Below, in pieces: positions 27,126 to 33,921 of a DNA stretch of 64,000 nt. The notes beneath the pieces are model-generated. The model did not search any database and was not told where the DNA came from. It was given only the letters and a program-made list of their open reading frames with translations. The DNA lies in contig NW_024883437.1 in NCBI RefSeq assembly GCF_019059575.1, positions 1 to 64,000 on the forward strand. The letters are read 5' to 3'. How positions within the stretch are numbered: position 1 is the stretch's first letter; every line of letters starts with the position of its first letter. Origin of the DNA: Amphibalanus amphitrite. Its lineage: Eukaryota > Arthropoda > Thecostraca > Balanomorpha > Balanidae. The translations under genes and the position numbers were made by a program.

Positions 27126-28132
27126 CCCGCGCACCGACGGGGGTCTGTGCCAACTTAGTACCGACGGGGGGGGGGGGGGGCGGATGACCGCCCCCCCCCT
27201 GAGATCTCGAGAACGAAGCAAGATAGCGACAAGCGGTAAACGGCATCGGATACGCACGGTCAAGATCTACAATTTTTACTAAGGTCATTTTCAGGTCAGG
27301 TCAAAGATGACGTCACAGGGGTCGAAAAAGTCAAAATGGCGGCGCTAAATATGGAGAGAGTTTTTCTCGAATAACTTTTGAATTAGTCAAGATAGGAACA
27401 AACTAAGGGCATCATCGTGATCCTCTCGTCAATCCGCATCGAATGATATATATGTTGACCTCGAAAGGTCAAGGTCAAAGGTTGACCTCAGGTCACGTGA
27501 CCTCGAGGTCATCATGTATATCATTCGATGCGTCTTGACGAGCTGAACACAATGAGACCATCCACGCGTCTGTATCTTGTTCCTGTACGGAGTTATTGGC
27601 CAAAAACCATTGGTGACCTTTGATGACGTCACATGACCTCACAGCTGCCCAACAGCAAAACAGACCTCAAGGTAGTGAAGGTTGATCGTATATGAAGTCA
27701 TGTATGGTATATGGGGCCATTCCGACCCGTTTTAGTAGTAAAAACAGTGAGTTGATTTTTCCCCCATTGACTTATAATGGGGAGGTCACGAAATTGACCT
27801 GACCTTAGGTCACCGATATCAAAATTCCGAGATAAAAATTGTAGCTACTAATGACCTAATAACATCCTGCGACTTTCAAAGGCCTCCGACATCTACTGTA
27901 GCTCTGGCACGGTGACAAAGTTGCAAAAAAGTGACTTGAGGTTGGGTCATTCAAAGTGACCTGGTGACCTGACCTTGAAAGGTAGGAGGTTCAAACTTGC
28001 ACACCATGTGTAAAATTGATAAGGGAATAGTCATACCAAATTTCGCGGCGCTACGCGCCGCGGTTTTCCCGCTATTCGCGAAAAACCTCAGGGGGGGGCG
28101 GATATCCGCCCCCCCCCCCGTCGGTGCGCGGG
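27126..28132 (+). mobile_element. TTAA-type element, copy 8 (reference copy)
   Basis: TTAA flanks at 27122-27125 and 28133-28136. Left: CCCGCGCACCGACGGGG, a 17-bp spacer, the motif again, then G-run, CGGATGACCG, C-run. Right: the reverse complement of the motif once, with CGGATATCCG between G and C runs. Inside each hairpin stands a short conserved phrase (ATCTCGAGAACGAAGC left; the right, read inward, TTTTTCGCGAATAGC). The centre (27425-27545) is an inverted repeat, ATCGAATGATATA and TATATCATTCGAT, around a GGTCA array. TTAA flanks and CCC ends resemble piggyBac MITEs. No ORF. Copy 12 is nearly identical, so the subfamily is young. Confidence 0.85.
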
Positions 28133-28136
28133 TTAA

Positions 28137-29059
28137 CCCGCGAGTTGCTGGGGGGGGCGTTAAACGCCCCCACTTTTTTCGCCGGGCCATAGCATAAAAA
28201 CGGCGCGCCGTAGGCGCGCCAAATTTTGGGTACCTGTAGAGAATTGATTGAAGTTTATGGTGACAATTTTTTTTTGAAAAAAATCGATCGGAAAATTTTT
28301 GAGATATCGAGGTTTTAGTGACGTCATGATTTCTGAGTTTTCGACCAAAAACGGCATATGTTCAAAAAATCATATAAAATCACAGAATAGACATACAGAC
28401 ATGCCGTAAACGCCATTAGACTGCCAATACCATGAACAATCAAATGGCTATCTTCGATTATTGATTATCGTTCCGCATTTTCCAAAATATTGAACTGAAT
28501 CTCGGCAATTTCTCGTGACTACTTCACCACCATGATACATGCATTTTTTTAAATTTAACTTCTTGAGCCAAACGCGTACACATATGATAAAATGAATGTC
28601 ACCATCGTGTTCTACGCCTCAAATTACCCATAAAACATGTGTCACAGGCTGCGAATATCAGTTTTGATTTTCGGGGATATTTGCCTACCCGGTTGACCTG
28701 ACCTTGACCCTGACCTATGCTTGACTGACCTTTACATGGAGCTGACACTCTTGTAGGCCTTATATGATGGATTGTGCACCGTTTTGACAGAGTTTATGAC
28801 CAGAGGCGCCAATTGCGAAGTCCTGAAGTCCATGCTACTGAAAGCCCGATTTCAGGTGTTTGACCTGACCTTGACCCCACCTGTGACCTCAAAATTCAAC
28901 TTTAAAGTACTCATCTGAAGCGCCTTGTCGCGTTCTTTCGTTTGCCGCCTCGTGCGTTTCGCTGCGCCTATTGGTTCTCGAGTTATCGGCTGGGGGCGTT
29001 TAACGCCCCCCCCCCCCCCAGCAAACGGTGGGTGGCGAAATACCCCAGCAACTGCCGGG
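28137..29059 (-). mobile_element. TTAA-type element, copy 9, abutting copy 8
   Basis: It shares the single TTAA at 28133-28136 with copy 8 and has its own right TTAA at 29060-29063. The ends are CCCGCGAGTTGCTGGGG and, read inward from the right, CCCGGCAGTTGCTGGGG plus a second copy. The hairpin loops are CGTTAAACG (left) and CGTTTAACG (right), mutual reverse complements. The body is different from copy 8. Confidence 0.85.
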
Positions 29060-29353
29060 TTAAATGAACTAGATTGAACAAGATTTTCATCGGACAAGAT
29101 TGTTGACGGCCCTCCTATGAAACGAGACTCGATGATTTCTTAAACTCCCTAGTTATTTTGCAACAGCCCTAGGTTCGTTGCATACTAACTAGGGAGGTTG
29201 CAACGACCCTAGTTTCGTTACAACGTCCCGGAACGAGCAGTTATTTTGTAACGTCCCTAGGGTCGTTGCAAATAAACTGATCGTTCAGGGAGGTTACAAC
29301 CACCCTAGGGTCGTTGCAAACTAACTGAAATCGCATACTCCCTGTAACATATA

Positions 29354-32197: not shown

Positions 32198-32366
32198 CTC
32201 TCTCTCTCTCTCTCTCTCTCTCTCTCTCTCTCTCTCTCTCTCTCTCTCTCTCTCTCTCTCTCTCTCTCTCTCTCTCTCTCTCTCTCTCTCTCTCTCTCTC
32301 TCTCTCTCTCTCTCTCTCTCTCTCTCTCTCTCTCTCTCTCTCTCTCTCTCTCTCTCTCTCTCTCCC
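32198..32366. repeat. (CT)n microsatellite, 167 bp
   Basis: A pure CT repeat with no interruption seen. The reverse strand gives Arg-Glu open frames that are artefacts. Confidence 0.97.
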
Positions 32367-32923
32367 ACACTTAGCCTCCCGCACCTCCCTCTCCGTTCGA
32401 CCCAGACGCAGTGACAGCTGGCGGAGGCTCGCCGGTCCCGCCCCGTGTAACCTCTGCCGTGTTTTGTTGTTCGCCACCCCTAACTCAGTTTGTTACCGGA
32501 CTCCGCTCCTCAATGAACGTTCGACGGACGACACGCGGGTTCCGTAATGCGGTTACGGCAGTGACGGAGATATGAATACAGCTCTGCGGCTAGCGGGAGC
32601 GGGAGCGGGGCGGGGGTGTCGCAGTTGGTTTCTCAGTCAATATGCATTGTATCACTACACTATGGATCGCTCTAAAGGGTGAATTATAAATCAAGGTTTG
32701 TTGGATTATCGGATAACTTAGGCTGATCCAATCAGCTCCTCTCACAAATCATTCAGAGAAACAGTCTTTTCTGCCACTGCCATGAGAGTTAGAGTGTGCT
32801 GAGATGAGCATGACAAAAGTGGAAATCGTTACAGCTGTATGAAAGCAAAGAATGCATTTACTGTATGATCTTCAAACTCGGTTGTTGGACCTAAAATAAA
32901 TATACTCCTACAAAACGTGAACG
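32367..32923. other. Intergenic DNA, no gene recognised
   Basis: Contains a GGGAGC run near 32595-32615. Nothing else recognised. Confidence 0.5.
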
Positions 32924-32927
32924 TTAA

Positions 32928-33921
32928 CCCTATTCCTGGCGGGCTCCGCCGGGACAAGAAACTGGCGGGGGGGGGGGCCGATTCGGCCCCCCCCCCCTGA
33001 GATCTCGAGAACGAAGCAAGATAGCGACAAACGGTAAACGGCATCGGATACGCACGGTCAAGATCTACAATTTTTACAAAGGTCATTTTCAGGTCAGGTC
33101 AAAGATGACGTCACAGGGGTCGAAAAAGTCAAAATGGCGGCGCTAGATATGGAGAGAGTTTTTCTCGAATAACTTTCGAATTAGTCAAGATAGGAACAAA
33201 CTAAGGGCATCATCGTGATCCTCTCGTCAATCCGCATCGAATGATATATATGTTGACCTCGAAAGGTCAAGGTCAAAGGTTGACCTCAGGTCACGTGACC
33301 TTGAGGTCATCATGTATATCATTCGATGCGTCTTGACGAGCTGAACACAATGAGACCATCCACGCGTCTGTATCTTGTTCCTGTACGGAGTTATTGGCCA
33401 AAAACCTTTGGTGACCTTTGATGACGTCACATGACCTCACAGCTGCCCAACAGCAAAACAGACCTCAAGGTAGTGAAGGTTGATCGTATATGAAGTCATG
33501 TATGGTATATGGGGCCATTCCGACCCGTTTTAGTGGTAAAAACAGGGAGTTGATTTTTCCCCCATTGACTTATAATGGGGAGGTCGCGAAACTGACCTGA
33601 CCTTAGGTCACCGATATCAAAATTCCGAGATATAAAAATTGCACATACTGGTACCCTAACTAAAGCCTGAAGAGAAGAAATTGATCGGTCAAAAACTCTA
33701 GCTCTGGCGTGATTGCAAACTTTTCTGAGGTAGGGTCACCAAACCGCCTCTGGTGACCTGACCTGAGGTCAGATCAACTCAACATTTTCAGACATGTTGC
33801 GTAGAAGCCTTTTAGGAAAAGTCAGAAAATTTGAGCTTCCTAGCTCAACGCGTTTGGGAGAAATAACCAAAAAACCTCAGGGGGGGCTCCTGAGGCCCCC
33901 CCCCCCCCGCCAGGAATAGGG
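32928..33921 (+). mobile_element. TTAA-type element, copy 10 (copy-8 body with different ends)
   Basis: TTAA flanks at 32924-32927 and 33922-33925. From ATCTCGAGAACGAAGC (about 33000) to about 33635 it is nearly identical to copies 8 and 12. Its ends are unrelated to theirs: CCCTATTCCTGGCGGG at the left, doubled after a spacer, and exactly complementary CCGCCAGGAATAGGG at the right. The hairpin loop also differs (CCGATTCGG). The last about 280 bp of the body is also different. It therefore looks like a recombinant in which both ends were replaced by a matched pair. Confidence 0.85.

Follow-up and report, generated by a model that had tools for sequence, protein, structure and literature searches.

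A mosaic family of TTAA elements in Amphibalanus amphitrite with the interior of one family between the ends of another

Copies 8, 12 and 10 are three mobile elements in a 64,000-nucleotide stretch of Amphibalanus amphitrite DNA (hereafter the window) that have nearly the same body under different ends. What explains this is an exchange of the interior with retention of the ends. Copy 10 belongs to a family, named B, which we read as a family C element whose middle was overwritten by family A, these being non-autonomous elements of the piggyBac/TTAA kind. We give this reading a probability of roughly 0.87.

Elements in the window and their insertion site

The window holds many elements, mostly 0.6 to 1.2 kb in length, which start with TTAACCC and end with GGGTTAA (Table 1). 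Their inverted repeats are short and begin with CCC, and TTAA is located at both tips of most complete elements and is mutated in some. There are many families but one asymmetric plan, each family having its own word of about 11 bases. The long end consists of CCC, the word, a spacer, the word again (often imperfect) and then a G-run joined by a short loop to a C-run. The short end consists of CCC, the word, a G-run, a loop and a C-run. Genome-wide searches were run on the assembly of 807.55 Mb in 2644 contigs, where the short-end pattern (TTAACCC, 11 free bases, seven G) gave 35,177 exact matches compared with 35 for the reversed pattern. Among the first 100 of these matches listed there were 39 different words, 21 of which were seen once.

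Duplication of a TTAA target on insertion was observed at one empty site, a paralogue. When the outer flanks of copy 8 and of its neighbour at 28133-29063 were joined, 325 of 338 positions matched the paralogous stretch, and the join fell on one site containing a single TTAA, which shows that copy 8 and its neighbour were inserted in a TTAA target.

Table 1. Elements, related features and the parts of copy 10, in window positions.
Feature	Positions	Strand	Remarks
Element, word GCCGTGCT	14146-15323	-	Short high-identity blocks in common with 45932-47116
Element, word GCCGGCCGA	18248-19284	-	
Short element, 604 bp, word GCCGCT	21686-22289	-	
Paralogous stretch without copy 8 and its neighbour (empty site, one TTAA)	24414-24751	-	Match to joined flanks
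Copy 8	27122-28136	+	Family A element, complete, with TTAA at both tips; the long end is on the left and the short end on the right
Element of another family, word AGTTGCT	28133-29063	-	One TTAA in common with copy 8
Copy 10	32924-33925	+	Family B mosaic element
Copy 10, left module with family C ends (CCC, word, spacer, word again, G/C hairpin)	32924-32997	+	C at telling sites
Copy 10, middle, A-derived	32998-33626	+	A at telling sites
Copy 10, right junction zone, GAGATATACAAATTG, common to A consensus and C2; one base changed in copy 10	33627-33641	+	Sequence and telling sites
Copy 10, C-derived part on the right (hairpin, short end)	33642-33925	+	C at telling sites
2.8-kb element, word ACCGCCT, two inverted A-body pieces	34924-37764	+	Matched ends; sequence comparison
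Copy 12	39836-40852	+	Family A element, right tip mutated
Element, word GCCCCAGT	45932-47116	-	Short high-identity blocks in common with 14146-15323
Element, word GCCGGCAC	63094-63989	+	

The 2.8-kb element, in which no ORF of at least 150 aa was found, contains a 1.6-kb palindrome (36060-37677, 94%), and its two inverted A-body pieces are without end modules. A further palindrome of 3.4 kb (7052-10463) is 99% identical to its own reverse complement, and its arms code for a piece that includes a reverse transcriptase domain; it is either a real inverted duplication or an assembly artefact. It is adjoined by an array of related repeats in both orientations (10622-11790). The window also has a long unbroken run of CT dinucleotides (32200-32365) and, on the minus strand, two retrotransposon pieces, one with a reverse transcriptase domain (55728-57842, 704 aa) and one with an endonuclease domain (61309-62190, 293 aa).

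Family B as a mosaic of families A and C

Copies 8 and 12 are 94.5% identical from end to end (1026 columns). In a pairwise alignment that runs inward from the left hairpin, copy 8 (27164-27849) and copy 10 (32961-33649) are 96.8% identical over 690 columns, and all three copies have a body of about 650 bp in common. The resemblance of copy 10 to the other two ends near 33641, its last 280 bp on the right being unlike theirs. Copies 8 and 12 have the terminal sequence CCCGCGCACCGACGGGG, whereas copy 10 has CCCTATTCCTGGCGGG and its left end is the exact complement of its right end. The right end of copy 12 begins with TTAACAC, which is mutated. The earlier note had pointed to near-identical bodies under different ends in these copies and to matched ends in copy 10, and both observations are real.

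We aligned 18 A copies, 13 B copies and two family C elements. One of the latter, C2, is located at L050:5441-6451 and has a different body between ends as in B; the other, C1, is its relative at L034:6331-7329 and has the ends TATTCCGGGCGGG. The A consensus differs from C2 at 389 positions, which were used as telling sites. B follows C at all 27 sites on the left, A at 241 of the 249 in the middle (C at 6, neither at 2) and C again at 108 of the 113 on the right (A at 4, neither at 1). The 6 C-like sites of the middle and the 4 A-like sites on the right may be later changes or come from an imperfect choice of parent copy. The left junction of copy 10 is located inside the C-run of the left hairpin, at 32987-32997.

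Both parent families and the mosaic are abundant. With up to 3 mismatches, the 47-base left module of B and C had 2317 genome matches, the 48-base left module of A 3321 and a 32-mer of the A body 7159, each with 0 matches for the reversed-pattern control; a 34-mer of the C body had 815. On contigs C1-C5 the counts of exact matches should be complete, since exact matches are listed first and in contig order, and extend past C5. There, 47 exact B/C left modules have the exact A body next to them in 31 cases, the exact C body in 11 and neither in 5, and the exact A body is found next to all 26 exact A modules. Because B follows C, A and C in turn at the telling sites, and because B/C modules carry either an A or a C body, it was the interior that moved and the ends that stayed. 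About 2000 of the 7159 A-body matches have no A or B/C module within 3 mismatches (as reckoned from 3321 plus 2317 minus the C copies), and other end types may occur among them.

To look at both ends of single copies we used 30 loci chosen by body pattern, which were the first 30 matches listed genome-wide. Their left ends are of type A in 17 and of type B in 12, and L014 has none. Apart from L014, which is without a left module, and L006, in which the right end is unrecognisable, both ends were resolved in 28 loci and were matched in every one (16 A/A and 12 B/B), with no mixed A/B element among these 28. The earlier note had described the terminal core as hypervariable between copies, whereas these 30 loci contain two discrete families. 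Its proposal of a swap stands in part: since a single body carries two different, internally matched end sets, a swap did happen, but variation of the ends from copy to copy is not supported.

The mean distance from the family consensus is 0.75% in B (13 copies) and 1.8% in A (18 copies), which indicates that B is the younger family. The nearest A copy is 0.6% away from the middle of the B consensus. Taken together, the low divergence of B and the closeness of an A copy fit one recent exchange followed by amplification. In such an event some 640 bp of family A sequence would have replaced the middle of a family C element; the most likely means, we infer, was gene conversion or a template switch while a break was being repaired. 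The two junctions are located in the C-run of the left hairpin and in the 15-base stretch common to A and C. Because both C ends were kept, B could still be mobilised by whatever transposase reads C ends, and it multiplied. MITEs are known to be altered inside via repair, gene conversion or template switching. Like such repair-altered MITEs, family B is non-autonomous and has an altered interior between kept ends; unlike them, its donor was a diverged family with other ends, and two types of ends, both numerous, now enclose a single interior.

The earlier note had suggested that each end of an element may be a copy of the other or have to pair with it; on this reading a change at one end would pass across while the body stays. 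Agreement of words within elements across families speaks for this, as does the pair C1 and C2, which differ by the same base in both outer words (TATTCCGGGC versus TATTCCTGGC) while their bodies are 91% alike. However, the inner word of C1 is without that change, no copy with a single changed end was found among the 28 loci, and the process is superfluous for B: both ends of copy 10 are family C ends, and C is still present with its own body. We regard copied or pairing ends as improbable. Very improbable is an ancestral B from which A and C were both derived through part replacement. The mosaic alone gives no direction; however, B copies are less diverged than A copies, the A body accompanies every exact A module on contigs C1-C5, and A and C are about 60% identical along their whole length, so that one of the two cannot be a recent derivative of B. 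A last possibility is that two elements were joined in assembly, or one inserted into the other, to give copy 10. The earlier note had named the former as a possible refutation; we found no point in support of this possibility, and its probability is close to nil. It is ruled out by the B structure with both ends at 12 of the 30 independent loci and by the 31 exact pairs of B/C module and A body.

Agreement of ends, shared blocks and the search for a transposase

The matched ends noticed within each copy extend across families. In 14 elements with different words, the mean identity of outer words was 0.88 between the two ends of an element compared with 0.58 between different elements, and 0 of 100,000 permutations did as well. 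The start of the element at 45932-47116 was set three bases short in this test, which lowered its own score. Compared base by base in 12 families, the two words agree at 10 or 11 of 11 positions in seven families and at 7 to 9 in the other five (F, I, J, M and N). Such agreement would be expected if one transposase per family binds both ends, and family-specific transposases are thus the probable reason for it.

Over the 66 pairs of these 12 families, bodies had a mean identity of 0.47 and words one of 0.40 and 0.44; words therefore change about as fast as bodies and not much faster. The interior is more conserved than the words in A/B, in D/F (body 0.80, words 0.36) and in A/C (0.60 and 0.36), and some pairs show the reverse, such as H/K, in which the words are more alike than the bodies.

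Comparison of 22 elements for shared blocks gave several further pairs with different words. D and F (L005 and L047) share a 592-bp block at 88%, F and G (L047 and L048:3310) one of 138 bp at 86%, and J and K (L039 and 63094) one of 141 bp at 84%. L048:8289 and 63094 share 87 bp at 93%. The elements at 14146-15323 and 45932-47116 have two blocks in common, of 71 bp (94%) and 72 bp (90%), with bodies about 61% alike overall. The high-identity blocks of these pairs stand well above each pair's background. In another window pair with different end words, the copy from 26436 onward, for which a single end was found, shares 450 bp at 80% with 63094-63989; this pair and that of 14146-15323 with 45932-47116 are of the kind of the two further body-sharing pairs (13/15 and 1/11) of the earlier note. 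Some blocks begin just inside the left hairpin, but many families have roughly the first 200 bases conserved as well, so that a short block may reflect either exchange or conservation. It is possible, though we think it rather doubtful, that the word of about 11 bases, of which an element has up to three, serves as a rapidly changing address for a set of diverging transposase lineages, with the G/C hairpins as preferred exchange points and bodies passing like cassettes from one address family to another. If true, the transposon population would be combinatorial, successful middles being placed behind currently readable ends.

The piggyBac transposase domain (PF13843) had at least 116 matches in the genome, many of them in long open frames. 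We examined nine piggyBac loci and could read ends at five, located on contigs C8, C53, C150, C1201 and C531. The ends are CCCATTAGTGCCCA at C8 (both ends) and C53, CCCATTAATGCCGA at C150, CCCATTAACGCTCG at C1201 and CCCAGGAACGCCCA at C531, with the outer words ATTAGTGCCCA (C8 and C53), ATTAATGCCGA (C150), ATTAACGCTCG (C1201) and AGGAACGCCCA (C531). The stretches examined at the other four loci (C33, C642, C264 and C72) had no recognisable end. The G/C hairpin plan was absent from all five sets of ends read, and among these five no transposase with the element ends was found. The five piggyBacs whose ends were read were not accepted as autonomous partners, their words being weakly like the element words TATTAGTGGCA and TAGAACGCCTA. 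Out of 2000 shuffled words, 77 did as well for C8, 63 for C53, 94 for C531, 274 for C150 and 1970 for C1201. The element word closest to the piggyBac end ATTAGTGCCCA is CCTATTAGTGGCAGG of L042, where a long end from position 884 onward repeats the word exactly about 30 bases further in. A loose rule that admits some false ends gave 68 candidates over the window and 200 kb more, and no coding element with hairpin ends was found among them; the largest matched pair was that of the 2.8-kb element at 34924-37764.

The sequence TTAACCCATTAGTGCCCA occurs 49 times in the genome, and nine pairs of occurrences are exactly 2681 bp apart with the transposase domain between them, from which it follows that it has no large set of miniature copies. 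One such 2681-bp piggyBac element is located on contig C8 at 31872-34552 (L051 and L052) and, judged by eye from its flanks, seems to be set in a TTAA inside a hairpin-type element. Both a TTAA target and CCC ends are features of piggyBac, and Kolobok is another TTAA group of elements. Because the piggyBac ends that we read have no G/C hairpin, the placement of the barnacle elements in the piggyBac/TTAA kind would rest on their TTAA target and CCC ends.

Related systems and significance

The earlier note knew of no described family with such behaviour, but the CMITEs of the coral Acropora are a close precedent. According to the part of the source available (PMC2872659), the TIRs of these TTAA elements differ while the internal region is conserved; in one case the interior was like that of another family, and the authors left it open where the interior came from. 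They occur in tandem arrays, and one family was tied to a piggyBac-like element (PMC2872659, same part). Like the CMITEs described there, the barnacle elements have a TTAA target and CCC...GGG ends and form several families that differ in their TIRs, some of them with an interior in common. Unlike them (about 100 bp), the barnacle elements are mostly about 1 kb, have a doubled word at one end and G/C hairpins at both, and offer a mosaic resolved to two junctions with both parents known.

In piggyBat, the portion of PMC11707139 available describes unlike ends, a binding motif repeated on one end and palindromes inside the ends. As in piggyBac and piggyBat, the target of the barnacle elements is TTAA and their ends are asymmetric and contain palindromes, one end having a repeated motif as in piggyBat, whereas G/C-run hairpins and word differences from family to family were not met in that portion. 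A third paper, PMC3442997, has in the part available nothing bearing on exchange. The anatomy of the barnacle elements was not met in the literature found, in so far as these sources were available, which is no proof of its being unpublished. As far as anatomy tells, they work like CMITEs and piggyBat.

Family B illustrates, with good resolution, a process for which there is a published precedent, and it does so in a group that is unusually rich in families. It presents the birth of a mobile family by the patching of one family's interior between another family's ends, with both parent families persisting in hundreds to thousands of copies. The 35,177 short ends of one plan are a large natural set on the co-change of transposon ends and transposases.
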